Origin: an uncultured Alphaproteobacteria bacterium
Lineage (GTDB): Bacteria > Pseudomonadota > Alphaproteobacteria > HIMB59
NCBI GenBank assembly: GCA_902521465.1
Contig: CABYRL010000009.1
Location: 1 to 38,986, forward strand
Length of the DNA: 38,986 nucleotides
Direction: 5' to 3'
Below the pieces are notes generated by a model. It worked only from the letters and a program-made list of their open reading frames with translations. It did not search any database and had not been told where the DNA came from. Made by a program: the position numbers and the translations under genes. Of the stretch, positions 1,769-18,048 are shown in pieces (positions within the stretch are counted from its first letter, which is position 1; each line of letters begins with the position of its first letter).

Positions 1769-1792
1769 AAAATAATAGTTATTTCCAATTTA

Positions 1793-1827
1793 AACTTCCC
1801 CCTTTATATTTTAATAGGGGGGGAGTT
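1793..1827 (+). terminator. Intercistronic G+C-rich hairpin between binding-protein and permease genes
   Basis: The arms AACTTCCCCC (1793-1802) and GGGGGGAGTT (1818-1827) can form a 10-base-pair stem with one T-G pair around a 15-base loop. A weak U-rich stretch follows. In binding-protein transport operons such hairpins commonly attenuate transcription or protect the upstream mRNA from 3' exonucleases, so that receptor is made in excess over permease. That role is inferred here. It is the most G+C-rich intergenic structure seen in the window. Confidence 0.6.
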
Positions 1828-1839
1828 AATTTCCTTAAA

Positions 1840-2790
1840 ATGATTTTAGATAAGTTCAAAAACCTTAGTAATAATTCAAATCTTTTAATATTATTTTTTA
1901 TTCTTTGTGCCTTTGCTATTTTTATAAGCCCTGCATTTTTAGATTTCAATAATATTCAAAATATAATCAGAACTGTAATGGTTTTAGGAATAATTGCTTT
2001 TGGCATGACAATGGTAATGATTGTTGGAGAAATTGATTTATCTGTTGGTTCAATAGCAGCTTTTTCATGCGCTTTTGGTGGATTATTTGTTGAAAGCGGA
2101 TCATCTTTTACAGTTATTTCTCTAACCCTGTTAGCTGGACTACTTTGTGGCTTTTTAAATGGATTAGGAGTTACTTTAATTAAAGTACCATCTTTAATAA
2201 TGACTTTAGGTACGATGGCAATAATTAGAAACGCCGGATATATAATGACAAATGGCCAAGCCTCTTATCCAACAAAGCTTGATACGTACATGATGACAGC
2301 AAAGGGTTTTATTGGCATAGTCCCAGTTCCAGTGATGATTTTTATTATTCTTTCAATTATTTGTGCTGTGCTTACTAGATATTCAACTGTTGGAAAAAGT
2401 CTCTATGTTGTAGGATCTAACCCCGTAGCTAGTATTTTATCTGGTATATCTAATAACAGAGCTAAGATTATCGCTTTTACCGTTTGTGGTCTTTGTTGCT
2501 CGATAGCAGGTTTGATTCAAAGCGCTAGACTTGGTCAAATAGATCCTCATATGGGTATAGGATGGGAGTTGACTGTGATAGCTATTGCAGTATTAGGTGG
2601 AGCCTCTTTATATGGTGGAAAGGGATCTATAGAGGGAACTATAATTGCTACTCTTATTATAGGAGTAATAAATAATTTACTCAATTTACTAGGAATGAGT
2701 AACCACTCTCAAGAAGTTGTAATTGCTTTAATCATTATAGGAATGGTGCTACTTCATAATTTTGGAAAGAAAGATAAGTCAACCAAATGA
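1840..2790 (+). CDS. Sugar ABC transporter permease (RbsC/XylH family), first of two
   Basis: This is an inner-membrane permease of the branched-chain amino acid/ribose (BPD_transp_2) family. The family pattern GMTMVMIVGEIDLSVGS lies near residues 48-64, and AIAVLGGASLYGGKGS lies near 248-263. There are about eight to ten hydrophobic segments, and the 316-residue length is normal for the family. Translation is probably coupled to the next gene because its stop codon overlaps the next start (ATGA, 2787-2790). Two non-identical permeases in one operon suggest a heterodimeric channel rather than the homodimer of the ribose system. Confidence 0.92.
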   Translation: MILDKFKNLSNNSNLLILFFILCAFAIFISPAFLDFNNIQNIIRTVMVLGIIAFGMTMVMIVGEIDLSVGSIAAFSCAFGGLFVESGSSFTVISLTLLAGLLCGFLNGLGVTLIKVPSLIMTLGTMAIIRNAGYIMTNGQASYPTKLDTYMMTAKGFIGIVPVPVMIFIILSIICAVLTRYSTVGKSLYVVGSNPVASILSGISNNRAKIIAFTVCGLCCSIAGLIQSARLGQIDPHMGIGWELTVIAIAVLGGASLYGGKGSIEGTIIATLIIGVINNLLNLLGMSNHSQEVVIALIIIGMVLLHNFGKKDKSTK

Positions 2791-3779
2791 ATTATGACTT
2801 CAAAAAATTTTTTTTAAATAATTCACTTTTATTTGTGTTCTTTTTTATTTGTTTAGTTGGAACGTTCACGAGTGAATATTTTTTTACTCTTACTAACCTT
2901 CAAAATATGGTAAGAAATATGGCCGTACCAGGCTTATTGGCTTTAGGTGTGTCATTTGTTTTTTTAGTATCTAGGATCGATTTATCAGTGGGATCTCTCA
3001 CTATATTTGGGCCAATTTTAGCAGTTTCATCCTTAGCTTTTTTTGGAGATATATTTGACTTTAAAGTTTTAGTTAGAGGTAACCAATACGCTAATAGTGC
3101 TGCTTTTATCGTCATAGTATCTTTAATTACAGGTTTAATTGTAGGTTTATTAAACGGTATTGGAGTTATGTATGGCAAGATAACATCATTTATTATGACA
3201 TTAGCCATGATGAAAGCACTTTGGGGACTAAATTATGTGTTAACCCATGGTCATGCCTATTACTTACAAATTCCAACTTATACATGGATGGGTACATTAA
3301 ATTTATTTTATATCCCATTTTCAACTTGGGTTTATATAATTCTAACTATAGTAGCTGCGTGGATTATGAAATTTACTATTGTTGGAAGAAGGATTTATTC
3401 CATAGGCGGCGATGAAAAAACAGCTAGGTTAGCAGGCATAAATGTTACATTTTGGGTAATACTTGCTTTTATGATGAGTAGTTTTTGTGCAGCTGTAGCT
3501 GGAATTTTATTCTCTTCAAGATTACAAACTGTTGATGCTCCTTTAGCTGTAGGTTTCGAGTTAACTGCTATTGCATTCGCGGTAGTTGGCGGTGTTAGTT
3601 TGACTGGTGGAAGAGGTTCACCATATAGGGCTTTTCTTGGAACTATCGTTATGGGTGCACTTTTTAGTCTTTTTTCGATGTGGGGATTAAATACATGGCA
3701 TAGAAACATAGTTGTAGGTATAATAATCATACTTGTGGTTATGCTAGATCAGAGAAAGAACAAATTAGGGAGGTTATAA
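2787..3779 (+). CDS. Sugar ABC transporter permease (RbsC/XylH family), second of two
   Basis: This is a second permease of the same family, 330 residues, with the matching motifs GVSFVFLVSRIDLSVGS (about 58-74) and AFAVVGGVSLTGGRGS (about 258-273). It overlaps the first permease by four bases and stops two bases before the kinase start, so the three genes are almost certainly one transcript. Compared with the first permease it has an extra segment near residues 85-105 (FGDIFDFKVLVRGNQYANS), predicted to lie outside the membrane core. It probably pairs with the first permease. Confidence 0.92.
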   Translation: MNYDFKKFFLNNSLLFVFFFICLVGTFTSEYFFTLTNLQNMVRNMAVPGLLALGVSFVFLVSRIDLSVGSLTIFGPILAVSSLAFFGDIFDFKVLVRGNQYANSAAFIVIVSLITGLIVGLLNGIGVMYGKITSFIMTLAMMKALWGLNYVLTHGHAYYLQIPTYTWMGTLNLFYIPFSTWVYIILTIVAAWIMKFTIVGRRIYSIGGDEKTARLAGINVTFWVILAFMMSSFCAAVAGILFSSRLQTVDAPLAVGFELTAIAFAVVGGVSLTGGRGSPYRAFLGTIVMGALFSLFSMWGLNTWHRNIVVGIIIILVVMLDQRKNKLGRL

Positions 3780-3781
3780 AA

Positions 3782-5359
3782 ATGTCAGATAAATACACAT
3801 TAGGAATAGATATAGGAACAACTGGTGTAAAAGCCTCAGTTTTAGATGTGGATGCAGGTAAAGTAGTAGCTCATTCTTTAAAAGAACATCCTTTATTTCA
3901 CCCAAAACCTGGGTATGCAGAACAAGAGGGGGATAATTATTGGAAAGCTGTAGTTGAAGCAGTTCAACAATGTTTTAAACAAGGTTCTTTTGCAGATAAA
4001 ATTTCTGGAGTTTCCCTATCTGGATTAGTAGGAGTTATGCTTCCAATTGACAAAGATGGCAAACCTGTTAGACCAGGCATGATTTGGATGGACTCAAGAT
4101 CTGAAGAGGAATGTACAGATATTCGTAATACAGTTGGTGAGACTACAATCAATAAGATTAATGGAAATCGTGTTGCACCTTGGTTTGTAGAACCTAAAGC
4201 TCTTTGGATGAAAAAACACGAACCACATAACTTTGAAAAGACTCATAAACTTGTTTCTCCATCTGGTTATTGCACCTATAAAATGTGTGGAGAGTTTACA
4301 ATGAACCATGGTGATGCTCAGTTATTCTATCCATATGAATATCAAAAAGGTGTGTGGAATGAAGAATTAGCAAATGGTTTAGGAATTTCTCTAGACAAAT
4401 ATCCAGATATTTACAATTCACATGAAGTAGTTGGTAAAGTTACAAAACAAGCATCTGAGGAAACTGGAATTAAAGAAGGGGCTGTTGTAGTAGCGGGTGG
4501 AACAGATATAAGTTGTGCTGCGTTAGGATGTGGCGTTGTTGAAGTTGGACAGGCTTTTTACTCAATGGGTACCGGTGCTAATATAGGTGTAATGATACCT
4601 ACATCTCAAGAAATTAATGAATTTAGAATCTTAAAATGGACATCTGTTTTACCAGGCATGACAATGTTTGATGGACCTATGGCGTTTGTTGGAGCTTCAT
4701 TAAACTGGTTTAAAAATAATTTTGCTGAACTTGAAATACAAGAGGCTGAGAAAAATAACCAAAATGTTTTTGAACTTCTTACAAAACAAGCAGAAAAAAT
4801 AAAATCAGGTTCTGATGGTTTGATGTATTTCCCGTACTTAGGTAATACACTTTCACCTAATTGGAATTCTACAGCTACTGGATTATTTTTTGGGGTAAGA
4901 CCAACTACCACAAAGGCACATTTTATTAGATCTGTCATAGAGGGTGTAGCTTTTGATTGTAATTCAAATGTTAAAATCGCAAAAGAAGCTGGAGCAAAAA
5001 TTGATAAATTTACTCTCAATGGTGGCCCAACTAAGAGTAGGCTATGGAATCAAATTACATCTGATGTGACTGGCTTACCTCTAGATCTTCCAGATGTAGG
5101 TAAATCAGAGGAATCTGGTTTCCCTCCAGAAGCTGCACCTCTTGGCGATGCTATATTAGCCGCAGTTGGAGCAGGTTTTTATTCAAATCCTTTAGAAAGC
5201 CTTGGTGATATTATAAAAATTAAAGAAACTTTTGAACCAAACTTAAAAAACCACGAAATGTATAGTGAATTTTTTAGTGTTTGGAGAAGTGTCTATCATA
5301 ACTTAATTGATGATATGAAGAAACACCATGAACTTCTAAACAAATATGATTTTTCATAA
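3782..5359 (+). CDS. FGGY-family carbohydrate kinase (xylulokinase-like)
   Basis: The protein is a cytoplasmic ATP-dependent sugar kinase, expected to phosphorylate the sugar or ketose brought in by the surrounding transporter. The N-terminal actin-like phosphate motif is GIDIGTTGVKASVLD (residues 8-22). IWMDSRSEEEC (near 101-111) matches the xylulokinase substrate-binding stretch, and the second domain carries VVAGGTDISCAALGCG and the C-terminal adenosine motif LNGGPTKSRLWNQI. The length, 525 residues, is slightly above the usual 480-510. It resembles xylulokinase most, but FGGY kinases for ribulose, erythritol and other polyols share these motifs. Its position inside a transporter operon, between permease and ATPase genes, supports action on the imported substrate. 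Confidence 0.85.
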   Translation: MSDKYTLGIDIGTTGVKASVLDVDAGKVVAHSLKEHPLFHPKPGYAEQEGDNYWKAVVEAVQQCFKQGSFADKISGVSLSGLVGVMLPIDKDGKPVRPGMIWMDSRSEEECTDIRNTVGETTINKINGNRVAPWFVEPKALWMKKHEPHNFEKTHKLVSPSGYCTYKMCGEFTMNHGDAQLFYPYEYQKGVWNEELANGLGISLDKYPDIYNSHEVVGKVTKQASEETGIKEGAVVVAGGTDISCAALGCGVVEVGQAFYSMGTGANIGVMIPTSQEINEFRILKWTSVLPGMTMFDGPMAFVGASLNWFKNNFAELEIQEAEKNNQNVFELLTKQAEKIKSGSDGLMYFPYLGNTLSPNWNSTATGLFFGVRPTTTKAHFIRSVIEGVAFDCNSNVKIAKEAGAKIDKFTLNGGPTKSRLWNQITSDVTGLPLDLPDVGKSEESGFPPEAAPLGDAILAAVGAGFYSNPLESLGDIIKIKETFEPNLKNHEMYSEFFSVWRSVYHNLIDDMKKHHELLNKYDFS

Positions 5360-5386
5360 TTCAATTTTATTTTAAAGGACAAAAAT

Positions 5387-6463
5387 ATGGATTTTCTTCA
5401 AATGAATAACATCTCCAAATCTTTTCCTGGAGTTAAAGCTTTAGACGATGTTTCATTTGAAATCAAATCCGGAGAAGTTCATTCATTAATAGGTCAAAAC
5501 GGTGCTGGTAAATCAACACTTATGGGAATCTTAAATGGTATTACCAAACCAGATGAAGGAGAGATATTAATTAATGATTTAGTAGTAAAAATTGATGATC
5601 CAAAAGATGCATTCAATTTGAATTTATCAATTGTTCATCAAGAATTTGCGTTATGTAATAATCTTTCAGTTGCAGAAAATATTTTTTTAGGTAATGAGCC
5701 ATTTAATAAATATGGCTATATAGACAAAAAAAAAATAAATAATGACGCCATAAAGATGTTAAACAGTATAAACGTTAATTTAGATACTGATGAAATAGTT
5801 GGAAATTTAAATACTTCTCAATGGCAAATAATTGAAATTTGTAAAGCACTAGCGAAGAGTCCAAAATTTATAGTTATGGATGAACCAACTGCCTCTCTAG
5901 ATGAAAGTCAAATCGACAATTTATTTGAAATAATAAAATCACTTAAAAACAATGGAATTGGTATTATCTACATATCACATAAATTAAATGAAATTATTAA
6001 AATCTCTGACCGAATAACAGTTTTAAAAGATGGAAAGATTAAAAAAACATTTGGAAAAGAAAACATTACTGAAGGTTTATTAATAGAAACTATGGTTGGA
6101 GAAAATATAGAAAATAAAAATTCTAATAATTTAGAAGATATCAAAGAGCCAATATTAAAATTAAATGAGTTATCTCATTTGAATTCATTTAAAAATATCT
6201 CTTTTGATTTACATAAAGGAGAAATCCTTGGTCTCAGTGGTTTGTTAGGATCAGGGTCTAATGAAATTTTGAGATCCTTATTTGGAATAATTGAATTACA
6301 AACAGGAGAAATAATACTTCAAGATAAATTAATAAATATAAACAATCCAAGAGATGCGATAGAAAATGGAATAGGTTATATTCCTTCTGATAGAAAAAAT
6401 GAGGGTCTTATACAAGATAATTCTATTAAAGATAACAGTATTCTTACCATTTTAAAAAATTGA
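5387..6463 (+). CDS. Sugar ABC transporter ATPase (RbsA/XylG type), N-terminal frame
   Basis: This frame encodes the first nucleotide-binding domain and the first half of the second domain of a duplicated sugar ATPase. Domain 1 has Walker A GQNGAGKST (about 36-44), a degenerate signature LNTSQWQ, and Walker B FIVMDEPTASLD. Domain 2 starts near residue 210 with the typical degenerate Walker A region GLLGSGSNE and continues to IPSDRKNEGLI. A TGA at 6461-6463 stops it at 358 residues, where family members run on to about 500. The missing part continues at once in the -1 frame, giving about 493 residues if joined. Possible explanations are a programmed -1 frameshift, a missing A in the A6 run at 6454-6459, or a real inactivating mutation. 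Confidence 0.85.
   Translation: MDFLQMNNISKSFPGVKALDDVSFEIKSGEVHSLIGQNGAGKSTLMGILNGITKPDEGEILINDLVVKIDDPKDAFNLNLSIVHQEFALCNNLSVAENIFLGNEPFNKYGYIDKKKINNDAIKMLNSINVNLDTDEIVGNLNTSQWQIIEICKALAKSPKFIVMDEPTASLDESQIDNLFEIIKSLKNNGIGIIYISHKLNEIIKISDRITVLKDGKIKKTFGKENITEGLLIETMVGENIENKNSNNLEDIKEPILKLNELSHLNSFKNISFDLHKGEILGLSGLLGSGSNEILRSLFGIIELQTGEIILQDKLININNPRDAIENGIGYIPSDRKNEGLIQDNSIKDNSILTILKN
6451..6460 (+). other. Slippery-type frameshift site in the sugar ATPase gene
   Basis: The bases TTTAAAAAAT contain two overlapping X-XXY-YYZ heptamers in the upstream reading frame: T TTA AAA (6451-6457) and A AAA AAT (6454-6460). The TGA stop follows immediately. A -1 slip here joins the upstream frame exactly to the C-terminal frame. 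No clear downstream stem-loop or upstream Shine-Dalgarno-like stimulator was noticed. A homopolymer sequencing or assembly error (A6 instead of A7) would give the same picture. Confidence 0.5.
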
Positions 6464-6867
6464 CTAATTTAGGTTTCTTCAATGCAATTGAAGCAAGAGA
6501 GACTACAGAAAGTTATATTGAAAAATTAAGTATTAAAATTTCAAATATAAATGATTTTGTAATGAATTTATCAGGTGGCAATCAACAAAAAGTTGTAATT
6601 GCAAAATGGCTAGCAAAAGAGTGCAAAATACTTTTATTTGATGAACCTACAAGAGGAATTGATGTTGCGGCGAAAGCTCAAATATGGAGTTTAATTTTAG
6701 AATATACAATAAATGGTGGTGCAGTAATAGTTGCATCAAATGAAATCCCAGAATTAATTGGTAATTGTCATAGAATCATAACTTTACAAAGAGGTAAAAT
6801 AAATCGAGTATTTGATAATAAAAATTTTGATGAAAAGGAAATTTCTCTAAATATTTCCTCTAACTAA
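6460..6867 (+). CDS. Sugar ABC transporter ATPase (RbsA/XylG type), C-terminal frame
   Basis: This frame carries the end of the second nucleotide-binding domain: the family signature LSGGNQQKVVIAKWLA (about 38-53), Walker B ILLFDEPTRGIDVAAK, and the switch region IVASNEIPELIGNC. The apparent TTG start at 6460 overlaps the upstream stop and has no obvious ribosome binding site, so this is better read as the -1 frame continuation of the preceding ATPase gene than as an independent gene. All motifs that follow the frame break are intact, which argues against a long-dead pseudogene. Its end overlaps the convergent Rieske ferredoxin gene by eight bases. Confidence 0.82.
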   Translation: MTNLGFFNAIEARETTESYIEKLSIKISNINDFVMNLSGGNQQKVVIAKWLAKECKILLFDEPTRGIDVAAKAQIWSLILEYTINGGAVIVASNEIPELIGNCHRIITLQRGKINRVFDNKNFDEKEISLNISSN

Positions 6868-7183
6868 CATTTACAAATATATAGTTCTCTTCAATTTTTG
6901 TTATATAAGTTTTTAAACCTTCAGTGGGTGGTGACTCTAAAACTTCACCTGTTGATATTTTAAATACACCTTGATGAAGGGGACACTCTATACTATCACC
7001 GTCAATAAAACCCTCACATAAGGATACTTTTTCGTGTGTGCAAAATAAATCTGTAGCATAAAATGTGTTATTAATATTATATACAGCTATTTTATTTCCA
7101 TTAGGTAACTGAAACTCTTTAACATCTTCGTCATCAATATCACTCACAGCGTAAGTTTTTATCCAATTTTCATTATCGCTCAT
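6860..7183 (-). CDS. Rieske-type [2Fe-2S] ferredoxin
   Basis: This small soluble electron carrier has 107 residues. The Rieske cluster ligands are Cys48 and His50 in FCTHEKVSLCEG, and Cys67 and His70 in CPLHQGVF, with the G-x-V-L-x-S-P-P continuation typical of oxygenase-associated ferredoxins. No signal peptide or membrane anchor is present, so it is unlike respiratory Rieske proteins. Its start overlaps the end of the reductase gene by four bases (7180-7183), and a desaturase-like oxygenase gene precedes both. The arrangement indicates electron flow from NAD(P)H through the reductase and this ferredoxin to an oxygenase. Confidence 0.92.
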   Translation of the reverse strand: MSDNENWIKTYAVSDIDDEDVKEFQLPNGNKIAVYNINNTFYATDLFCTHEKVSLCEGFIDGDSIECPLHQGVFKISTGEVLESPPTEGLKTYITKIEENYIFVNVS

Positions 7184-8382
7184 AACAATTCTTTTAAATT
7201 AATATCTTTATTTTGTATTTTTTCCATGTTTGGTACAATATTTTTTTTAATAATTTTTCTTATAATTGAAATATCTCTACCATTGTTTACTGCCACTGCA
7301 CCAATAATCTTTTTATTTTTAAAATAAATGATTGTATTCTTATTTTCAGAATAATTTCTTAATATTTTATTATCGAAATTATTAATTTCTCCTAAAATTT
7401 GAAAATTTTGATCAAATTGATCTGTCCAAAACCAAGGAATTTCATCATAAGCAGTTTTTGTACCAGTCAAATTTTTAGCTAAAATATCTGATTGTTTTTC
7501 AGCATTATTCCATGACTCTTCACGAATATGTTTATTTAAAAAATTATTTTTTGATAGAGCCACGTCACCAAGAGCGAAAACATCTTTAACAGCTGTTTCA
7601 CAATACTCATTTACTTTAATACCGTTTTTTTCTTCAAGCATGGTTCCCTTTAAAATATCAGTATTAGGATAGACACCTATGCCAACTACTAACAAATCGC
7701 ATGCTAAAATTTTATTATCATCTAATATTAAGCTTTTAATAGATCCATCTTCATTCCTTATTAATTTTTGAAAAGAAGTGTTAAATAAAAAGTTAACATT
7801 ATTTTTTTTTTGATATTTAAATATAAATTCTCTTAAATCATCATTAGAATTTCTTAGCAAAATTTTTTCAGAATTATCGATAATAGTAACTTCCTTATTT
7901 GGATAATTTTTTTTTATAGTTGAGGAAATCTCTAATGATATATATCCTGCGCCCAATAATATAATATCTTTAGAAATTTCAATACTACTCTTTATTTTAA
8001 CCGAGTCATTTAAAGTTCTTAAATAATTTACTCCTTCAATATTTTCTTCAAAAATTCTTTTAGGACTAGACCCATTTGCAAAGACCAATTTGTCGTATGA
8101 ATAATCATTATTATTTTGGTCGTAAATAATTTTGTTAATAAAATCAATTTTATTAATTTTTGTACTAAAATAGTAATTTACTTTTTCTAAATTGATATCA
8201 ATTTTAAAATCTTCAAATTTTTTTGATCCATACAAAAAATCTTTCGACAAAGGTGGTCTTTCATAAGGTAAGTGTTCCTCTTCGCTGAAAATATTAATAT
8301 TACCTTTAAATTCTAATTTATGGAGATTATTAACTAGTTTACCTGAGGCATGACCCCCGCCAATGATAGAAATATCACTCAT
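7180..8382 (-). CDS. FAD-dependent ferredoxin reductase
   Basis: This is an oxygenase-type ferredoxin reductase of the BphA4/putidaredoxin-reductase class, 400 residues. It shows an N-terminal FAD-binding motif (IIGGGHASGK, residues 6-15), the conserved ERPPLSK segment (41-47), an NAD(P)H-binding motif GAGYIS (144-149), and the second FAD contact VFALGDVAL near 270. It is expected to pass electrons from NAD(P)H to the Rieske ferredoxin encoded directly downstream. The gap from the desaturase-like gene is eleven bases, so the three genes form one operon. Confidence 0.92.
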   Translation of the reverse strand: MSDISIIGGGHASGKLVNNLHKLEFKGNINIFSEEEHLPYERPPLSKDFLYGSKKFEDFKIDINLEKVNYYFSTKINKIDFINKIIYDQNNNDYSYDKLVFANGSSPKRIFEENIEGVNYLRTLNDSVKIKSSIEISKDIILLGAGYISLEISSTIKKNYPNKEVTIIDNSEKILLRNSNDDLREFIFKYQKKNNVNFLFNTSFQKLIRNEDGSIKSLILDDNKILACDLLVVGIGVYPNTDILKGTMLEEKNGIKVNEYCETAVKDVFALGDVALSKNNFLNKHIREESWNNAEKQSDILAKNLTGTKTAYDEIPWFWTDQFDQNFQILGEINNFDNKILRNYSENKNTIIYFKNKKIIGAVAVNNGRDISIIRKIIKKNIVPNMEKIQNKDINLKELL

Positions 8383-8393
8383 TTAGTGTTATT

Positions 8394-9374
8394 TTATTGG
8401 CTAAGAATTGTTTCTTTGTTTTTTGATTTTTTATTTTTCCAAATCTGTTTAATAATATCGTAATGAACACTTAGTATTGAAGGCTCTACTTCATCCGTAT
8501 GTGGTTTGATAATATTATGAAACTTAGGAAGTCTGTGGAAAGGCACATTTGAATATAAATGATGTTCAATATGATATGGCATGTTCCAATATAAAAATTT
8601 TAAAATGGAACTTGGAAAAGATGTTCTAGTGTTATGTATCATATCAGCTGTTTCATCTTTACCAGTATGCTCAACCATTCTAACGAGTCTTACAACAGGC
8701 TCACCCATAATTCTTGGAAGCAGCCAATAAATAAGTAAAAAAGTAGTGCTAAAGTAAATTGAAAAAGCTATAAGAAAAAAATAACCTAAAACCATTAATC
8801 TTGATTCTTTAAAAAGCAATTTTACGTCAGACTCAGGTATATAATCTTTTTCTGATTTATTAAGTTTGCCAATTGAATGTCTGAACAAATTATCGATGAT
8901 TCTCAACCAAATCGCAAAGCTTGTAACGTGTTTAAAATACTCAGTGTAATTGTCTGGAAAATCAACTTTATCAGGATCCTTTTCAGGATGCTGAGTGTAG
9001 GTATGATGAGCAATGTGCCTGTAACGACCATTAAGGAAAGATCTAAGTAAAATGAAACCAATAAAATATCCAACTATTTCATTTAATTTTCTATTTTTAA
9101 AAGCAGTTTTATGGATACATTCGTGTAAACCTGCATAAAGAAAAGCAATAAATGTTCCATGGATAAACATCAAAGGTATGGTTAGGTAAATATTTGGTGA
9201 TAAATAAATAAGCACGCCAGATATAATTATGAGCAAAATGTGCAAAAACAGATGTTTAAGCCCACTTAAGTTATCTCTTTTTAGAAAAGGTTTAAGCTCT
9301 TCCTTAGGAATCAATTTTGATCCGTGGTAAGGCCAATTATTATTGATATTTGATGTATTTTCAGTTGTTTCCAT
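8394..9374 (-). CDS. Histidine-box membrane oxygenase/desaturase (fatty acid desaturase family), paralogue 1
   Basis: This is an integral membrane non-haem di-iron enzyme of the fatty-acid-desaturase superfamily, 326 residues from the ATG at 9374. A TTG seven codons upstream (9395) is possible but less likely. The histidine boxes are HECIH (84-88), HIAHH (120-124) and HIEHH (268-272), with an extra EHTG (235-238). Hydrophobic segments lie near 42-82 and 192-220. The superfamily includes desaturases, alkane hydroxylases and other C-H hydroxylases, so the substrate is open. Unlike most lipid desaturases it is co-transcribed with its own Rieske ferredoxin and reductase, which favours a hydroxylase with a dedicated electron chain. 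A paralogue lies at 14163-15155. Confidence 0.85.
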   Translation of the reverse strand: METTENTSNINNNWPYHGSKLIPKEELKPFLKRDNLSGLKHLFLHILLIIISGVLIYLSPNIYLTIPLMFIHGTFIAFLYAGLHECIHKTAFKNRKLNEIVGYFIGFILLRSFLNGRYRHIAHHTYTQHPEKDPDKVDFPDNYTEYFKHVTSFAIWLRIIDNLFRHSIGKLNKSEKDYIPESDVKLLFKESRLMVLGYFFLIAFSIYFSTTFLLIYWLLPRIMGEPVVRLVRMVEHTGKDETADMIHNTRTSFPSSILKFLYWNMPYHIEHHLYSNVPFHRLPKFHNIIKPHTDEVEPSILSVHYDIIKQIWKNKKSKNKETILSQ

Positions 9375-9408
9375 ATAATAAATATATTTGAGCAAAAATT
9401 CTGATCAA

Positions 9409-9426
9409 ATATATTTTATGAATATG
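9409..9426. promoter_or_regulatory. Candidate LysR-type operator between divergent desaturase-like and PanB-like genes
   Basis: This is an exact copy of the 18 bases at 417-434, with core ATATT-N5-AATAT (9411-9425, T-N11-A pattern). It lies 36 bases from the desaturase-like start and 60 bases from the PanB-like start, a typical place for a LysR-type site controlling both sides. A LysR gene lies about 0.9 kb downstream. It is inferred only from pattern and position. Confidence 0.38.
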
Positions 9427-9485
9427 ACATATGCTTATTTTCTATAAATGTTTAATGCCATGTCCAAAAATGATATTATTTATAA

Positions 9486-10298
9486 ATGAAAAAACTTTAC
9501 ACATGGGGTGGAAAATTTTCAAATAGGAATATTACAGTCTACGATTTAGTAAAAAATAAAGGAAAGAAAAAATATATACAAACAACTGCTACTAATTCAG
9601 ACGAGTCATCTGCTGCAATGGAGGCTGGTTTTGATATGATTTTATGTAAATCACCTAATATTTCTGAAGTTAGAAAAGGAGCTCCAGATTTATTTTTAAC
9701 AGCAACAATAGATTTAGCACTTTTTCCGTTAAAGGACGATGTATTAAGAGAAGCTTTTAATTCACTTAAAAATGGAGCAGATCAAATTTATACCGCAAGA
9801 GGTCCGCACATTGTTGAGTATCTCTCAAAGGAAGATATTCCTGTAATGTGTCATTTAGGGTTGGTTCCAAGAAAATCCTCTTGGAAAGGAGGTCTAAGAG
9901 CTGTAGGAAAAACTGTTGAAGAGGCCATGAAGCTCTATGATGACTTTAAAACCATGGAGAGTGCTGGAGCATTATCAGCAGAGTGTGAGATAATTGCATC
10001 AAATGTTATGGATGAAATCTATAAAAAAACTAATTTAATTATAAGCTCTTTGGGCTCTGGAATGAGTGGAGATATTATTTATTTATTTCAAAATGATATT
10101 TGTGGAGAACATAATGATATTCCAAAACACGCAAGTGCTTTTGGAAATTTATTAAAATTAAAACAAAACCTTTATAATGAAAGAGTAAATTCTTTAAAAA
10201 AATATAAAGAAGCAGTTGAAAATCAATCTTTTCCAACAGCTGATACTACAATTAAAATGAGTGATAAAGACTTTGAAAAGTTTAAGTCGAAAATATAA
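9486..10298 (+). CDS. PanB-like protein (ketopantoate hydroxymethyltransferase superfamily), paralogue 1
   Basis: The 270-residue protein follows the PanB TIM-barrel pattern: IPVMCHLGLVP (118-128), GGLRAVGKT (near 135-143) and AGALSAECEII (160-170) match PanB's VPVxGHLGLTP, GGYKVQGR and AGAxxxxLECVP. The glutamate at about 166 corresponds to the PanB catalytic base. The usual metal and substrate ligands are not visible: the GDS, ADxPF and VKIEGG motifs are replaced by LCKSPN, LTATIDLA and IYTARG. The segment between the first two is also shortened. It is therefore unlikely to make ketopantoate. It is transcribed away from desaturase-like paralogue 1, while its own paralogue (13385-14170) is operonic with desaturase-like paralogue 2. 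The actual reaction is unknown. Confidence 0.75.
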   Translation: MKKLYTWGGKFSNRNITVYDLVKNKGKKKYIQTTATNSDESSAAMEAGFDMILCKSPNISEVRKGAPDLFLTATIDLALFPLKDDVLREAFNSLKNGADQIYTARGPHIVEYLSKEDIPVMCHLGLVPRKSSWKGGLRAVGKTVEEAMKLYDDFKTMESAGALSAECEIIASNVMDEIYKKTNLIISSLGSGMSGDIIYLFQNDICGEHNDIPKHASAFGNLLKLKQNLYNERVNSLKKYKEAVENQSFPTADTTIKMSDKDFEKFKSKI

Positions 10299-10307
10299 GA
10301 TATAAAT

Positions 10308-10349
10308 ATTATCTATATAAAAACATTTATGTTATAAATTATCTATATA
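10308..10349. repeat. Two direct repeats of a 12-base motif overlapping the LysR start
   Basis: The 12-mer ATTATCTATATA occurs at 10308-10319 and again at 10338-10349, each preceded by TATAAAT. The repeat distance is 30 bases, close to three turns of B-DNA, so two bound proteins would sit on the same face. The second copy runs into the LysR start codon at 10349. It could be an autoregulatory operator; chance is possible in such A+T-rich DNA. Confidence 0.45.
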
Positions 10350-11227
10350 TGAAATATATCAATTTTAGTCAATTACGGTCTTTTCATGCTGTTTCTAAAA
10401 CAGGAAGTATTACTCAAGCTTCAAAACTTTTAAAGGTTAGTCAACCTACTATAACCAAACAAATTCAATTATTAGAAGAATTCTATTCTATAAATCTTAT
10501 TAATAGGCATGCGAGAGGAATTTCTCTTACAGACCTTGGAATAAAGTTATATGAAATCACCACTAATATCCTAGAATTAGAAGAAAACGCACTAGATCTT
10601 TTCTCATCAAATTTAAATGTTCATGAGGGAAATTTAATTACTGGTACATCAGGATCTTACTACATAATTAAACTTATAAAAGAGTTTAAAAAGAACCATC
10701 CTAAAATTAAACTAGATATTATCTCAAGCAACTCTAATGATATTTTAGACAAAATTTATAATTATGAGATTGATATTGGTGTAATTGGAAAACCTTTAAA
10801 TAAGAATTTTAAATCAAATATTTTTTCAATACCTTACCTAAAACAAAACATAGTTATAATAGCTGGAAAAGGTCATAAATTTTATGGAAAAAAAAGCTTA
10901 AATATAAATGAACTAAATGGTTGTGATTTTATAAATAGAGAACCTGGATCTGAAACAAGAAGAGTTTTAGAAAATGTATTAAACAAAACAAATAATAAAA
11001 TTAATTCAGTTATGGAAGTAGGTAGGGTTACAATGATACAAGCTGTTAAGGAAAATATGGGCTTAGGTTATATATCCGAACCAGAGTTTGAAAATTACAA
11101 AGATGTTAAAAAAATTTTTATCAATAATACAGATATGTTTACTCAAGCATATGTGGTTTGTTTAAAAAAGAAAAAGTCAGATAATTTAATTAACGCATTT
11201 ATAAACACTGCAAAAAAAATAATCTAA
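10349..11227 (+). CDS. LysR-family transcriptional regulator
   Basis: This is a DNA-binding regulator of 292 residues. The N-terminal winged helix-turn-helix (residues 1-65) has the family pattern FHAVSKTGSITQASKLLKVS followed by QPTITKQIQLLEE. The rest is a type-2 periplasmic-binding-like effector domain beginning near residue 90. It sits 50 bases after a PanB-like gene on the same strand and is the only transcription factor recognised in the accessory region, so it is the natural candidate controller of the desaturase-like/PanB-like genes. Candidate sites are the T-N11-A palindrome at 9409-9426 and the direct repeats across its own start. The inducer is unknown. Confidence 0.93.
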   Translation: MKYINFSQLRSFHAVSKTGSITQASKLLKVSQPTITKQIQLLEEFYSINLINRHARGISLTDLGIKLYEITTNILELEENALDLFSSNLNVHEGNLITGTSGSYYIIKLIKEFKKNHPKIKLDIISSNSNDILDKIYNYEIDIGVIGKPLNKNFKSNIFSIPYLKQNIVIIAGKGHKFYGKKSLNINELNGCDFINREPGSETRRVLENVLNKTNNKINSVMEVGRVTMIQAVKENMGLGYISEPEFENYKDVKKIFINNTDMFTQAYVVCLKKKKSDNLINAFINTAKKII

Positions 11228-11268
11228 CCACTTTTTTCATACTAATGATGAGAGCTCTTAATATTTTT

Positions 11269-11967
11269 TTATTTATATTTGTAATCGGGATTAGTGCCAG
11301 ATGTGTATTCTATACCATCAATTACTACTTTTGGCCAAGTACCAATACCAATAAGTTTGGGTCTTGACTCCAGATAATCTAAAATACCTTGAATCTTTTC
11401 AAAATCGTTCATAAATTTTCTTAACTTTGGAAAGTTATCTAAAATTTTATCATCTAATAGCAATGCTAGTGAAACATGATGATAAACATTAAAATCACAA
11501 TAAAATGCTCTTTCTCCTAAAAAAAAATTACCTTCATATTTACTTAGTAACTTTTCAAAATTTGTAAAAGCTTTGGGTAAAATTTCATCTAAAAGATTTT
11601 TTTTATTCTTTAAGTGCATTTCACCAACCCAAACATTTATTGTTGGATTTAAAGGAAAAAATAAATCATGGGCTGATTCAAATATAGAGTCAGCATATGC
11701 CGCCATTTCCTCATTATTGGGGATATTGTTTGTAAGTTTAGCTATATATCTTGAGATAGTATTGCTTTGCCATATTTCAATTTTCTCATCTATAACAAGC
11801 AAAGGTAATTTATGAAAAATCACCTCTTTTTTGACATCACCCCATGGTTTTTTAAAATAATCCCATGCCATTTCATATGAATATTCGATACCCGCAGTAT
11901 GTAGCATCATCCTTGGAGCCTCACACAAAGCTCTAAGATTGAAATAGATTAACTGTAGTTTAGACAT
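11269..11967 (-). CDS. Glutathione S-transferase family protein
   Basis: The 232-residue protein has the cytosolic glutathione S-transferase layout. An N-terminal thioredoxin-like domain (residues 1-80) has the tyrosine motif LIYFNLRALCEAPRMMLHTA (about 6-25), the cis-proline stretch KLPLLVIDEK, and the QSNTISRYIA glutathione-contact motif. A helical C-terminal domain follows. The sequence most resembles the sigma/pi type with catalytic Tyr. It is divergent from the glutamine-synthetase-like gene across 39 bases and converges with the LysR gene. It may conjugate or isomerise an intermediate of the neighbouring pathway, or simply detoxify; nothing in the sequence decides. Confidence 0.88.
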   Translation of the reverse strand: MSKLQLIYFNLRALCEAPRMMLHTAGIEYSYEMAWDYFKKPWGDVKKEVIFHKLPLLVIDEKIEIWQSNTISRYIAKLTNNIPNNEEMAAYADSIFESAHDLFFPLNPTINVWVGEMHLKNKKNLLDEILPKAFTNFEKLLSKYEGNFFLGERAFYCDFNVYHHVSLALLLDDKILDNFPKLRKFMNDFEKIQGILDYLESRPKLIGIGTWPKVVIDGIEYTSGTNPDYKYK

Positions 11968-12006
11968 AAAGTTTATATTAATATTTTTATATTATAAATA
12001 TTTGTC

Positions 12007-13392
12007 ATGAAAACTAAAAATTACTTATCAGAAGCACAAAATTTTCTTAAGAGAAATACACAAGTAAAATCATTCGATATTGTAATGCATGATTGTAATG
12101 GTGTAGGTCGTGGAAAAATAATTAGAAGAAATGAGTTATTAAATTTGTATAAGTCAGGTAGGCAATTTCCTCTTTCATTACTTGGAATGGATATTACTGG
12201 TGAGGATACACCTGAAACTGGATTGATTTTAGAGCAAGGTGATGGTGACATAAAAGCTTGGCCTATACCATCATCACTAAAGTTATTGCATAACAGCAAA
12301 CCACCAAGAGGTGAGTTATTTATGAACATGTACGATATTGATGGAAAAAAATTATTAACAGATCCAAGAAATGTTTTGGAAAATAAAATTCAAGATTTTA
12401 AAAAAAAAGGAATTAATTTTTATGCAGCATTTGAGCTAGAATTTTTTCTTGTTTCAAATGAATTGGATGAGTATGGAAAACTCAAACCAGCAAAATCTAT
12501 ACTTGGAAAAAGAACATCAACTAAAAAGACAGATGTATATTCAGTAGATCATCTCCATGGTATGTTACCTTTAATTGATGATATTTATGAAGCTACAAAA
12601 CTTGCAAAAATTGATGCTGAAACTATTATTTCAGAGTACGCACCCGGTCAATACGAATTAACATTAAAACATCAAAAATCGTTACTAAAAGCTGCTGATG
12701 ATATTTTAAGGTTAAAAAGAATTATAAGAGCACAAGCAAGAAAACATGGAGTCACTGCATGTTTTATGGCAAAACCTATGGAAAATATTTCTGGTTCTGG
12801 AATGCATTTTCATATTTCACTTTATGATCAAAAAGAAAAAAATATTTTTGCCGAAAGAAATAACAAAAAAGTAAATAAAAATCTTAATTATGCACTTGGT
12901 GGTCTTTCAAAAACAATGGGTGAAAGTATGTTGATATTCGCACCAAATGCTAATAGTTGGAGGAGGTTTGTTTCAGGATCTTATGCACCAACAAAGCCTA
13001 ATTGGGGAATAGATAACAGATCAGTTGCTTTTCGAATACCAAGTAGTAATAAAAATAATAGAAGGATAGAACATAGAGTCTCAGGAGTTGATGCAAACCC
13101 ATATTTAGTAGCCTTAACTATAATTTCAGCAATTGAATTAGGAATTAAAAATAAAATTTCTCCAGATAAACAAACAACCGGAAATGCTTATTTAAAGAAA
13201 AATAATCAAAAATACAAAATTCCCTCTGACTGGAATTCATCAATTATGCTATCTAAGAAATCCTCTTTTTTAAAACAAACTTTAGGCCCAGAATTACATA
13301 AGGCGTTTATAGCCATCAAGGAAATGGAATATCATAAATTTTCTAGTACTATATCAGAATTAGATATTGATTTATATTTAGATGCTATTTAA
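12007..13392 (+). CDS. Glutamine-synthetase-like gamma-glutamyl amide ligase
   Basis: This 461-residue enzyme of the glutamine synthetase superfamily resembles the GlnT/PuuA group, which joins glutamate to ammonia or an amine using ATP. Visible elements are the metal-binding AAFELEFFLV (140-149), the SEYAPGQYEL glutamates (about Glu210, Glu218), the SGSGMHFHIS loop (262-271), and the ATP/glutamate region NSWRRFVSGSYAPTKPNWG with RIEHRVSGVDANPYL. The tyrosine adenylylation loop of GlnA is not seen. Catabolic members make gamma-glutamyl amides from methylamine, ethanolamine, isopropylamine or putrescine. Its location between oxygenase-like and betaine-oxidation genes makes an amine product plausible, but ordinary glutamine synthesis is not excluded. 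It overlaps the convergent PanB-like gene by eight bases. Confidence 0.87.
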   Translation: MKTKNYLSEAQNFLKRNTQVKSFDIVMHDCNGVGRGKIIRRNELLNLYKSGRQFPLSLLGMDITGEDTPETGLILEQGDGDIKAWPIPSSLKLLHNSKPPRGELFMNMYDIDGKKLLTDPRNVLENKIQDFKKKGINFYAAFELEFFLVSNELDEYGKLKPAKSILGKRTSTKKTDVYSVDHLHGMLPLIDDIYEATKLAKIDAETIISEYAPGQYELTLKHQKSLLKAADDILRLKRIIRAQARKHGVTACFMAKPMENISGSGMHFHISLYDQKEKNIFAERNNKKVNKNLNYALGGLSKTMGESMLIFAPNANSWRRFVSGSYAPTKPNWGIDNRSVAFRIPSSNKNNRRIEHRVSGVDANPYLVALTIISAIELGIKNKISPDKQTTGNAYLKKNNQKYKIPSDWNSSIMLSKKSSFLKQTLGPELHKAFIAIKEMEYHKFSSTISELDIDLYLDAI

Positions 13393-14170
13393 CTTTATCT
13401 AGAAAATCATTAAGCTCTTTTTCTTCCATTTTAATAAGATGTTTATCTTCAGGGTATGCACCACTATTAAATTCATCAACAAACATCTTAAAACCTTTTA
13501 TTCTTAATTCTTGTAATTCTCTCTCTTTAATTTCTAAATCTACATATTTTTTTGCATGTCGAGGATAATGACCAACGTTTGTACCAAGTATATCATTACA
13601 AAATAAATATTGTGTATCACACACATCACCACAACCCATACCCATAGTTATCATTTTAGTACTCTTTGTTATAAATTCTGCAAGCTCAACTGGTACCACC
13701 TCAACTTCTACGCAAGCTGCTCCAGCATTTTCGAGATCTTTTACTTTTTGATATACTTTAAAAGCTTCGTTTGACGTTTTTCCTACAGCTCTATAATTAG
13801 TCCACGTTGCAATATTTGGGACTAATCCAACGTGTGCAGTTACAGGTATTCCCTCTTTTGCCATAGCCTCAATAAAGTTAATAGAGTGTGAACAATAAAT
13901 AGCATCTGCTCCCATTTCCATTATTTCAAAACCTTTTTTTATTGCCTCTTGAGGCGAACTCAACAACCCATGTTTAAGGCCAACAGATAAAAATGCTGTT
14001 GGAGCAACTTTTCTTACATCCTTGAAATGATGATCGGGCTCACAGGAAATTATTTCAATTCCTGCTTTGTAGGCAGCTTCTGCCTCTTTTGCTGTATCTA
14101 TATGAGTTTGAGGCCATTTTTTTTTTCCTTTTTGACTCCATAAATCAAAAACAGTAGTTCTTTTAGCCAT
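13385..14170 (-). CDS. PanB-like protein (ketopantoate hydroxymethyltransferase superfamily), paralogue 2
   Basis: The 261-residue protein is closer to true PanB than paralogue 1. It has IPVTAHVGLVP (108-118), NYRAVGKT, LENAGAACVEVEVVPVELAEFIT (matching PanB's LExAGAxxxxLECVPVELAxxIT, catalytic Glu at about 157), and MGMGCGDVCDTQYLFCNDILG for the glycine-rich phosphate-side loop. The PanB ligands GDS, ADxPF and VKIEGG are replaced by SCEPDH, LSVGLKHG and IYCSHS, with about 20 residues lost between the first two. Metal binding must differ or be absent. Its start overlaps the end of desaturase-like paralogue 2 by eight bases, indicating translational coupling and probably one pathway. The reaction is unknown. 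Confidence 0.8.
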   Translation of the reverse strand: MAKRTTVFDLWSQKGKKKWPQTHIDTAKEAEAAYKAGIEIISCEPDHHFKDVRKVAPTAFLSVGLKHGLLSSPQEAIKKGFEIMEMGADAIYCSHSINFIEAMAKEGIPVTAHVGLVPNIATWTNYRAVGKTSNEAFKVYQKVKDLENAGAACVEVEVVPVELAEFITKSTKMITMGMGCGDVCDTQYLFCNDILGTNVGHYPRHAKKYVDLEIKERELQELRIKGFKMFVDEFNSGAYPEDKHLIKMEEKELNDFLDKVK

Positions 14171-15155
14171 TGTTATTAGATGGAACAGCTACTTGTAATT
14201 CATATGAAGGGTTCTTGGCTTGTTTTAAAATTGTAGGGATGATTTCAGAGTATGCTCCCCACAAACCTTTCTTAGCTGGTGGCATCTGATCTTTAACTAA
14301 TTGGTGAAGTTTAGGTAAATTATGTGATGGCACAGTAGGGAACATATGGTGTTCAATATGATATTCCATCTGCCAATATAAAAAACTAAAGATCGGGTTT
14401 AAGTGCATTGTTCTAGTACTATATCTATGATCTTTGATATTGTCTTTTAGCCCAGTGTGCTGAGTTAATCCAAACAGTCTTTTGAGTGTTATCCCATAAA
14501 AGTTTGGAAGTAAAAAATATAAAACCGGCAACCAAGACTGAAAAGCAATTGACATAAAAATTAATAAAATCCAAATACCAACATGTAATCTTGAAGAGTT
14601 TATGCATTTTTGATGTTCCCTTTCAGGAATTACTTGTTTCATTACTTCCGTTTTTTTGCCTAAAGCATGAAGAATAGTTTCGTATTGAGTTGTTTTTTTA
14701 AAATTAATTATGTCAAAGAAAGGTATGAATAAACTGAAAAAGTAAAAAACATCAGTTGGTCTTCTAATTGCAATTTCAAAATCAAGAGGATCATCAAAGT
14801 AAGTATAACCATGATGACGAAAATGTGACCATCTCCATCTTACTGGTTCAAATCCATTCATATAACTACCAATTTGATAAAAAAAGTTATTCCAATAGTT
14901 CGTTTTAAAAGCTGTTTTATGTCCAGTTTCGTGCCAAATAGGATCTGCGCAATTCCATATATTTCCATAAATTAAAAAAAATAATAAAGACCACCAAGTC
15001 CCCCATGTTATATAAGCTAAAACACCAAATACAATTAAAGATCCAAAGAAAATAAACATGTGTTTAAAACCTTGAAAATCAGACTTCTTAAGAAGCTTTA
15101 CAAATTCTTCTTTATCAACGTCACAATGATGCCATTTGTCTAAGTCAACTTTCAT
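14163..15155 (-). CDS. Histidine-box membrane oxygenase/desaturase (fatty acid desaturase family), paralogue 2
   Basis: This 330-residue integral membrane di-iron protein has histidine boxes HETGH (75-79), HFRHH (111-115) and HIEHH (266-270), and a QHTG element near 232-235 equivalent to EHTG in paralogue 1. The shared third box (YHIEHH...P..NLPK) and overall spacing show the two are homologues, although they differ considerably. It is coupled by an eight-base overlap to the PanB-like gene and follows a small membrane protein gene by 40 bases. No ferredoxin lies in this operon, so it may draw electrons from the Rieske/reductase pair at 6860-8382. A lipid desaturase role cannot be excluded. 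Confidence 0.85.
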   Translation of the reverse strand: MKVDLDKWHHCDVDKEEFVKLLKKSDFQGFKHMFIFFGSLIVFGVLAYITWGTWWSLLFFLIYGNIWNCADPIWHETGHKTAFKTNYWNNFFYQIGSYMNGFEPVRWRWSHFRHHGYTYFDDPLDFEIAIRRPTDVFYFFSLFIPFFDIINFKKTTQYETILHALGKKTEVMKQVIPEREHQKCINSSRLHVGIWILLIFMSIAFQSWLPVLYFLLPNFYGITLKRLFGLTQHTGLKDNIKDHRYSTRTMHLNPIFSFLYWQMEYHIEHHMFPTVPSHNLPKLHQLVKDQMPPAKKGLWGAYSEIIPTILKQAKNPSYELQVAVPSNNNG

Positions 15156-15195
15156 TTACAAAAAAATACCATAAACTAAAAAAAAATAAATAAGG

Positions 15196-15618
15196 TCAGA
15201 CAAAAGATCCTATTGCACCAGCTATGGCAAGAATCAAGCCTAATCTAGACAAAGACCCAGAATTTTTAATATATTTTTGATTGGGGGATAGGTTTTTTTT
15301 AGCTGATACATATAAATGCATATTTATAAATATGGCTGTAATTAGAATTAAGCTAGCTCCAAATAATTTCATATGAAAAGTCCAACCTAAATTAAATGAG
15401 CCGTATATTACCAATAGCAAAATAATTCCAGTAACCCACATTGTGATGATAGCTAATAAAGATAAAAATGCTAAAACCTTAAAACCTTTAGCCAAATGAG
15501 GCTCAGGCACTTTACCTTCTTTTTTATATATAGATTGTATAACAGCACTACCAATACCTCCTCCTCCAGCAATAAACAGAGATATAAGATGAAGAAACTT
15601 ACAAATGTATATAATCAT
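15196..15618 (-). CDS. Small four-helix membrane protein (HemJ/DUF2269-like layout)
   Basis: The protein has 140 residues and four likely membrane helices (about 4-28, 46-72, 82-103, 120-140). It has a histidine near the N-terminus (His10 in KFLHLIS), then TGIILL, then WTFHMKLFGAS with His82 and Lys84, and His101. This spacing resembles HemJ-type protoporphyrinogen oxidase and related DUF2269 proteins, in which an N-terminal His and a Lys after W-x-x-H/K are functional. The similarity is by pattern only. It heads the operon with desaturase-like paralogue 2 and the PanB-like gene, so it may be a haem or redox membrane partner. Divergent from the carnitine dehydrogenase gene, 51 bases apart. 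Confidence 0.6.
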   Translation of the reverse strand: MIIYICKFLHLISLFIAGGGGIGSAVIQSIYKKEGKVPEPHLAKGFKVLAFLSLLAIITMWVTGIILLLVIYGSFNLGWTFHMKLFGASLILITAIFINMHLYVSAKKNLSPNQKYIKNSGSLSRLGLILAIAGAIGSFV

Positions 15619-15669
15619 ACAAAAAAAATATCATAATTTAATATTTATGAGTTAATATATTTTTAAAAT

Positions 15670-16641: not shown

Positions 16642-16642
16642 T

Positions 16643-17785: not shown

Positions 17786-18048
17786 ATTTAATAAAATTAA
17801 AAATTAAAAACCAAGTGTTGTTCAAAGATTACAGCAATATAATTAGAAAAAATTTATTAGGATTAGTTATCTTAAAAGGTAAAAGAAGCAATTGATAATG
17901 AAAAAATTTTGTAAAGTAATGTTTTAAATTACTTACTTTGGTGGCTTCATCTTTTTAACCTCCATCCTTAAACCTATCCTCTAGGTGATTCTATCTTATC
18001 AAATAAATTGGATTTTGTATTTTTTAATTTATGAATATTATAAAAACT
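17786..18048. other. Longest intergenic stretch (263 bases), with one weak hairpin
   Basis: No gene, tRNA or recognisable regulatory RNA was seen. At 17911-17936 the arms GTAAAGTAA and TTACTTAC can pair with one bulged A. Read on the minus strand the hairpin is followed by AAAATTTTTT, so it could end transcription of the secreted-protein gene, although it lies about 110 bases past that stop. For its size and slightly higher C content near 17950-17990 it stands out from the otherwise minimal spacers. Confidence 0.35.

Follow-up and report, generated by a model that had tools for sequence, protein, structure and literature searches.

PanB-like proteins beside histidine-box oxygenases in an uncultured HIMB59 bacterium: a candidate one-carbon partner of oxidative demethylation

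Why should two genes resembling panB each lie beside a membrane oxygenase gene, and do both pairs belong to one pathway? The question is raised by a 38,986-nucleotide stretch of DNA (contig CABYRL010000009.1, positions 1 to 38,986, assembly GCA_902521465.1) from an uncultured alphaproteobacterium of the HIMB59 lineage. This stretch, hereafter the window, has a G+C content of 29.7% and lies on contig C9 of a 1.34-Mb assembly that is 92% complete. The pairing of PanB-like and oxygenase genes is true and recurring, and the best explanation of the gene content, to which we give a probability of roughly 0.58, would be oxidative demethylation of the MocDEF type, known from the rhizopine system, in which a PanB-derived partner passes a one-carbon (C1) unit to tetrahydrofolate (THF). 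The genes concerned are the following.

6860..7183, minus strand: MocE-like Rieske [2Fe-2S] ferredoxin (PF00355, 60.4 bits)
7180..8382, minus strand: FAD/NAD(P)H ferredoxin reductase, MocF-like (Pyr_redox_2, PF07992, and Reductase_C, PF14759)
8394..9374, minus strand: DES1, histidine-box membrane oxygenase of the FA_desaturase superfamily (PF00487, 134 bits; three histidine boxes)
9486..10298, plus strand: PANB1, PanB-like, apparent accessory-cassette copy (PF02548, 93 bits)
10349..11227, plus strand: LysR-type putative regulator of the DES1-PANB1 cassette (PF03466/PF00126)
11269..11967, minus strand: glutathione S-transferase, on the apparent genus-core side (PF14497/PF02798)
12007..13392, plus strand: glutamine-synthetase-like (GS-like) ligase (PF00120, 318 bits)
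13385..14170, minus strand: PANB2, PanB-like, of the apparent genus-core pair (PF02548, 127 bits)
14163..15155, minus strand: DES2, MocD-like histidine-box oxygenase (PF00487, 125 bits; three histidine boxes)

Open reading frames and Pfam searches confirmed the two histidine-box enzymes, two PanB-like proteins, Rieske ferredoxin and reductase named, with the same positions, in the original prediction. That prediction took them for a single pathway, in which two oxygenations fed by one Rieske chain are each followed by a carbon-carbon step of a PanB-like protein, perhaps with an amine trapped by the GS-like ligase. DES1 and DES2, the only PF00487 genes found in the whole assembly, are 32% identical over 317 columns, and PANB1 and PANB2 are 34% identical over 259 columns. 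The ATG codons of DES1 and PANB1 are divergent and 111 bases apart (a TTG at 9395 is an alternative start of the DES1 frame), and the start of PANB2 and the stop of DES2 overlap by 8 bases.

Recurrence of the pairing in other genomes

Species genomes were scanned with an alignment of five PanB-like sequences, and at least 62 loci were obtained (L denotes genomic stretches fetched around PanB-like genes and G the genomes of the collection). Two of the loci listed were set aside, namely L121, a true PanB by best score, and L120, which holds only pieces of a PanB-like gene; the counts below refer to the remaining 60 listed loci. An oxygenase of one of three families (desaturase-, FA_hydroxylase- or PhyH-like) was found within 4 kb of the PanB-like gene in 48 of them and, after merging at 85% PanB-like identity, in 29 of 39 clusters. 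Counted in 1-kb bins, the desaturase-like genes number 21, 5 and 22, with a single one in the next six bins, and the Rieske (32) and reductase (24) genes all lie within 2 kb. The original prediction had proposed searching gene neighbourhoods for repeated co-occurrence of desaturase-like, Rieske and reductase genes with PanB-like ones, and this linkage does recur. It spans Rhizobiales, Rhodobacterales, SAR11-type and HIMB59-type genomes, and many PanB-like clusters also carry genes of sugar or inositol transport and catabolism. No panC was found near the 60 loci; this absence alone means little, for even around the host's true panB, a separate gene on another contig (G000:C5; 264.6 bits), no panC was found within 1.5 kb.

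Within the order, an oxygenase lies no more than 4 kb away in 18 of 20 hand-picked diverse stretches, several of them from one genome. Of 150 genomes of the order that were searched, 132 have a PanB-like match at E ≤1e-30; eight more have weak matches only, which may be true PanB. Example neighbours were confirmed as PF04116 and PF05721. In other phyla, PhyH was found in a Trueperaceae metagenome-assembled genome (MAG) and a VanA-type oxygenase in an Acidimicrobiia MAG, and none of the scanned kinds of oxygenase lies near the PanB-like gene in two other Actinomycetota and one Marinimicrobia MAG. A less biased sample of the class (385 genomes) gave 15 matching genomes outside the order, six of which have a close oxygenase: desaturase-like in L156, L159 and L170, PhyH in L165 and L167, and a Rieske oxygenase resembling GbcA in L160. 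In L158, purU and a Rieske ferredoxin gene stand among Gfo/Idh/MocA genes, and eight of the 15 have no such neighbour, the match in L157 and L169 being close to a contig end. In the stretch L119, titled Euryarchaeota archaeon ARS96, the PanB-like protein is on the tree nearly identical to those of this bacterial order, and L119 is probably a mis-binned contig.

The PanB-like proteins and the rhizopine operons

In PanB, binding of Mg2+ and the keto acid falls to the residues Asp45, Asp84, Lys112 and Glu114, and enolisation to the base Glu181. When 104 PanB-like proteins (near copies included) were aligned to E. coli PanB, Asp84, Lys112 and Glu114 were kept in none of them and Asp45 in one; His136 and Glu181 were kept in all 104. 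PANB1 and PANB2 both lack the former four residues, and PANB1 retains the equivalents of His136 and Glu181. The clade has residues of its own, Glu at PanB position 179 (104 of 104) and His at 229 (103 of 104). The likeness to PanB extends to the family and the fold: both window proteins pass the PF02548 cut-off of 28.7 bits, and the 28 best matches in the PDB of an AlphaFold (AF2) model of PANB2 (mean pLDDT 91.5, residues 119-124 below 50) are PanB chains, with 1m3u at the top. Besides the lost residues, the proteins differ from PanB in their scores under the NCBIfam cut-offs (for PANB1 and PANB2, 71 and 104 bits vs 207.55 with TIGR00222, and 75 and 116 vs 272 with NF001452) and on the tree, where long branches part their clade at 100/100 from three true PanBs. 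From these sequences it may be concluded that the PanB-like proteins are not ketopantoate enzymes, because Asp84, Lys112 and Glu114 are lost in all 104, though they descend from the PanB fold. Their interpretation as redundant panB copies was rejected, since a separate true panB is present and the active-site residues are lost.

One and the same PanB-like clade accompanies unrelated oxygenase families. On its tree, the partner label changes at least 10 times for the desaturase alone, at least 9 times for PhyH and at least 4 times for FA_hydroxylase, some of these changes reflecting only contig ends or the 3-kb limit. Rieske oxygenases of the VanA or GbcA type, families known for O- and N-demethylation, neighbour the PanB-like gene in L075, L160 and L048, and another Rieske-oxygenase match lies 1.1 kb from it in L064. 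The nearest outside relatives of PANB2, its sister rows L054, L055 and L059, neighbour FA_hydroxylase genes, in L055 and L059 together with a reductase gene and purU. The carbon-carbon chemistry of the PanB type that had been predicted for the substrate fits poorly with the loss of the Mg2+ and keto-acid residues in 104 relatives and with this choice of partners; because one clade accompanies unrelated oxygenase families, the handling of a shared C1 product fits better.

In the rhizopine (moc) system, mocDEF is assigned to demethylation, and purU hydrolyses formyl-THF. Rhizobial plasmids carry, in this order, genes for a desaturase-like protein, a Rieske protein, an FAD reductase and a PanB-like protein. 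A match at ≥80% to the MocR encoded beside MocD of R. lentis is present in 14 plasmid records, and four were opened: the moc locus of R. lentis, first reached via its PanB-like gene, and, via MocR, those of S. meliloti RCAM1115, Phyllobacterium zundukense and R. indicum. In each of these loci, the genes for ferredoxin and reductase are succeeded first by a PanB-like gene and next by purU. In three of the four, mocD is annotated, and S. meliloti RCAM1115, with no desaturase gene annotated in its place, has a long MocD-like reading there. Genes of iolE and Gfo/Idh/MocA are also present in moc loci. According to the available part of one paper, catabolism of L-3-O-methyl-scyllo-inosamine requires the mocD operon (PMC3538637); the available part of another gives the unit as mocDEF, rhizopine-inducible, with no mention there of pantoate, formaldehyde or demethylation (PMC10107442).

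Over 320 residues, DES2 shares about 40% identity with MocD and has its three histidine boxes, and PANB2 is 43% identical to the PanB-like protein of a moc operon; DES1 is 29% identical to MocD. The window ferredoxin shares 40% identity with the MocE encoded in the moc locus of Phyllobacterium (79.5 bits with the MocE model TIGR02377, under its cut-off of 136.15), and the reductase is 27% identical to MocF of L174 over 417 columns. The genes of DES1, reductase and ferredoxin (6860-9374) have the MocDEF layout, a PF00487 enzyme with three histidine boxes adjoining a Rieske ferredoxin and an FAD reductase, and in both systems a PanB-like gene adjoins the oxygenase, ferredoxin and reductase genes. 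The window differs from the rhizopine system in that its Rieske and reductase genes sit with DES1 and not with DES2, the closer relative of MocD, and in that no MocR, purU or inositol genes were seen at the locus.

Proposed mechanism and its alternatives

We propose that two modules for oxidative demethylation of the MocDEF type, differing in origin, lie in the window. The substrates would be imported compounds resembling sugars, cyclitols or osmolytes, and in each module the oxygenase, DES1 or DES2, would hydroxylate an ether- or amine-bound methyl group, so that a hemiacetal or carbinolamine is formed. Its PanB-like partner would receive the C1 unit, as a hydroxymethyl group or formaldehyde, and load it onto THF to form methylene-THF, which would keep the cell from being exposed to free formaldehyde; PurU or further enzymes of folate metabolism could then yield formate or supply biosynthesis. 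Judged by its sequence, DES1 is likely a hydroxylase/demethylase. The PanB-like protein probably performs C1 handling of some kind, and folate appears somewhat favoured as the acceptor, because releasing a C1 product by oxidative demethylation is an ability that the oxygenases could have in common and because purU is present in the moc loci, L055 and L059. The stricter idea of direct transfer with no free formaldehyde, in which the PanB fold minus its keto-acid site moves the hydroxymethyl group from diverse oxidative demethylases to THF, is tentative and in our opinion has somewhat less than an even chance; the same holds for this relay as a widespread module by which soil bacteria and SAR11-like ocean bacteria break down methyl ethers and methylamines. 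Folate-coupled demethylation is known from GcvT-type O-demethylases and from sarcosine oxidase operons with purU. The proposed system would share with these the removal of a methyl group, the loading of C1 onto THF and purU in the operon, and would differ from them in using a PanB-fold protein and a separate oxygenase instead of a GcvT-fold methyltransferase.

If this is true, a family labelled 3-methyl-2-oxobutanoate hydroxymethyltransferase in databases is mis-named and is a C1-handling partner of oxidative demethylases, and the PanB-like gene completes the rhizopine operon, described in the available text as mocDEF. There would then also be reason to suspect that the streamlined marine bacteria of the order draw part of their nutrition from methylated sugars, cyclitols or osmolytes. 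A rhizobium that can be cultured and whose substrate is known would allow the claim to be tested. In the open-access literature searched, no description of a PanB-like role beside oxidative demethylases was found. The available part of PMC5320631 names no panB, purU or desaturase. Of two papers on HIMB59/AEGEAN-169, PMC10308909 does not mention desaturase, rhizopine, carnitine, inositol, one-carbon or hydroxymethyltransferase, and PMC10734472 does not mention desaturase, rhizopine, carnitine, Rieske or hydroxymethyltransferase and has 'demethyl' in a reference only. The available part of PMC4433239 has an entry '3-methyl-2-oxobutanoate hydroxymethyltransferase', together with a glycine-cleavage T protein, for a region that also contains methanesulfonate monooxygenase genes; this is no more than a lead to a possible member of the clade.

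A number of observations weigh against oxidative demethylation with transfer to folate. None of the three oxygenase families is found within 4 kb in 12 of the 60 listed loci, eight of which are cut on one side within that distance (L092, L096 and L100 are not cut), and none of the four Verrucomicrobia loci has such an oxygenase. The seed proteins came from clusters that have an oxygenase, so related clades, mostly Alphaproteobacteria, are over-represented; in the less biased class sample, six of the 15 genomes outside the order have an oxygenase near. A PanB-like subclade of about 300 residues from other alphaproteobacteria (L102, L161, L162, L163 and L166) has no scanned oxygenase nearby; L165 and L167, on the same branch, have the PhyH neighbour. 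As to folate, purU lies within 1 kb in only three of the 60 listed loci, GcvT, FolD and GlyA were not found within 9 kb of any of them (single E. coli seeds, E 1e-8, the FolD seed being a fragment), and no PurU over the cut-off was found in the bacterium's own genome, which has formate-THF ligase. S. meliloti 1021 has a PanB-like gene on pSymB and, according to the available part of PMC8343143, does not degrade rhizopine, and pSymB of strain ABS7 carries the set desaturase-Rieske-reductase-PanB-like without purU; such sets therefore appear to serve other substrates too. In Sphaerotilus hippei (L120:8986-10109), a moc-type operon with purU retains the PanB-like protein only as about residues 5-25 and 169-263. 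In G010, a genome of the same genus, DES2 is present with no close PanB-like gene and a weak PanB match only. The Asp45 column lies in a gappy stretch of the alignment, and the retained Glu181 could mean that carbonyl chemistry is kept. All claims of C1 handling by PanB-like proteins, moreover, are read from genes, and it is from these that we infer that this bacterium demethylates its substrates, which compounds they are, that THF accepts the C1 unit and what donates electrons to DES2.

The alternative that survives best, in our opinion still an unlikely one, gives the PanB-like protein a role with no part for folate: it would work on the oxidised carbon skeleton as a lyase or isomerase, or else help to open the hemiacetal that the oxygenase produces. 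The clade-specific Glu and His would then mark a remodelled pocket, and the oxygenase-free loci and the rarity of purU agree with it; one clade, however, serves more oxygenase families than a skeleton-specific reaction should. Even less probable is that formaldehyde is assimilated through an aldol reaction in which a keto acid takes the place of folate as acceptor, pyruvate for example giving 4-hydroxy-2-oxobutanoate. The PanB fold, the kept Glu181 and His136, and partner oxygenases that could release formaldehyde would suit such a reaction, but Asp45, Asp84, Lys112 and Glu114 are gone and the presence of purU in the moc loci speaks for folate.

One pathway or two modules, and their surroundings

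The single pathway of the original prediction, which we find as doubtful as the keto-acid aldol, has several points in its favour: both pairs and the only ferredoxin and reductase are adjacent, His136 and Glu181 are kept, and L037/L098 have one Rieske and one reductase gene among PANB1-DES1 and a second PanB-like/desaturase pair. It is opposed by the lost metal and keto-acid residues and by the moc loci, where the skeleton should enter inositol catabolism, in which to our knowledge no PanB-type step is known. It is also opposed by the distribution of the genes, since PANB1 occurs at ≥70% identity in four of 52 genus genomes (in each of the four at ≥73%). DES2 and the electron chain were surveyed in 20 genus genomes including the own one (completeness 81-99%; limits E 1e-10 for the reductase and 1e-5 for the ferredoxin). 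A DES2 orthologue at ≥72% identity is present in 18 of the 20, with a PanB-like gene within about 12 bases in 17. In 15 of these 18, including the single-contig G002, no homologue of the window ferredoxin or reductase was found, the survey having covered homologues of these two proteins and donors of other families not having been sought. DES2 thus need not depend on the window ferredoxin, which would be the electron donor of DES1, and a shared electron chain was rejected as a necessity.

The two pairs also separate in related stretches. In L047 and L048, of the same genus, DES2-PANB2 stands with the GS-like ligase and a small membrane protein, and neither stretch contains DES1, PANB1, a Rieske ferredoxin or a reductase. 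The block in L034-L036 comprises transporter, FGGY kinase, Rieske ferredoxin, DES1, PANB1 and LysR, with a reductase called in L034 and L035 and not in L036; L037-L038, from the other family of the order, have a block of transporter, LysR, PANB1 and DES1. In all five of these stretches, LysR adjoins PANB1. By comparison with these relatives, the window is composite, with what looks like an accessory DES1-PANB1-Rieske-reductase cassette beside a genus-core DES2-PANB2 unit, and this picture does not favour a single two-step pathway. The GS-like ligase accompanies PANB2-DES2 in L034, L035, L047 and L048, so an amine substrate remains conceivable; its own scores are under the NCBIfam cut-offs for GlnA, PuuA (185 vs 650) and type III (181 vs 469.6). 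The glutathione S-transferase accompanies the GS-like ligase and PANB2-DES2 in L047, where no cassette lies in the fetched stretch. Genes of DUF1501 and DUF1800, tested for family in L035, stand between the GS-like ligase and PANB2 at L035:11829-14425 and L047:4786-7382 and do not intervene there in the window.

That ordinary fatty-acid desaturase genes merely happen to neighbour a redundant panB is a very improbable explanation: the generic family annotation (PF00487, PF02548) would allow it, but the neighbourhood counts across four groups of genomes contradict it, the true panB is elsewhere and the NCBIfam desaturase and PanB cut-offs are missed. DES1 (51 and 40 bits with DesA and DesB) and DES2 (30 with DesB) stay below the curated desaturase cut-off of 500; both as membrane fatty-acid desaturases were rejected on this ground and by their catabolic surroundings. 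Among NCBIfam models, DES1 best matches the arginine hydroxylase GntB of the guanitoxin pathway, also a histidine-box hydroxylase, with 77 bits, far under the cut-off of 380. An Rfam scan of positions 5000-18000 gave no match. The flanking genes are as follows.

509..6867, plus strand: ribose-type ABC transporter (binding protein, two permeases, ATPase) with FGGY kinase, apparent upstream part of the accessory cassette
3782-5359, plus strand: FGGY kinase (NCBIfam)
15196..15618, minus strand: small membrane protein, DUF2269-like (PF10027, 22.6 bits, under the cut-off of 28)
15670-16641: carnitine-dehydrogenase-like gene (356 bits vs a cut-off of 414)
16643-17785: gamma-butyrobetaine-dioxygenase-like gene (309 bits vs a cut-off of 415)

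The binding protein, first permease and kinase were assigned by NCBIfam, and the second permease and ATPase by eye. The ATPase is split over two overlapping frames in the window (5387-6463 and 6460-6867) and is a single 493-residue frame in L034 and L035; the split is an assembly error or a broken gene. The small DUF2269-like protein adjoins DES2 in L034, L035, L047 and L048 and is a conceivable partner of it. Genes of betaine oxidation had been predicted next door; the two genes are there, beside DES2 and PANB2, and because both score below the curated cut-offs, 'betaine oxidation' denotes a family resemblance only.

PANB1 and DES1 sit with the ribose-type importer and FGGY kinase, and in L037 also with an IlvD-like gene and with one that we take, by eye, to be lactonase-like. 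These surroundings, as context and not as identification, suggest that the substrate is a polyol or sugar carrying a methyl group. Of the Pelagibacteraceae, L101 has its PanB-like gene 2.3 kb from iolD. In SAR11-type genomes, the PanB-like genes have iolD and genes for an HpcH/HpaI aldolase and an aldehyde dehydrogenase in their vicinity (L101:8965-13956, where the families were tested), with similar frames in L103 and L117, surroundings that hint at the use of inositol or O-methyl-inositol.

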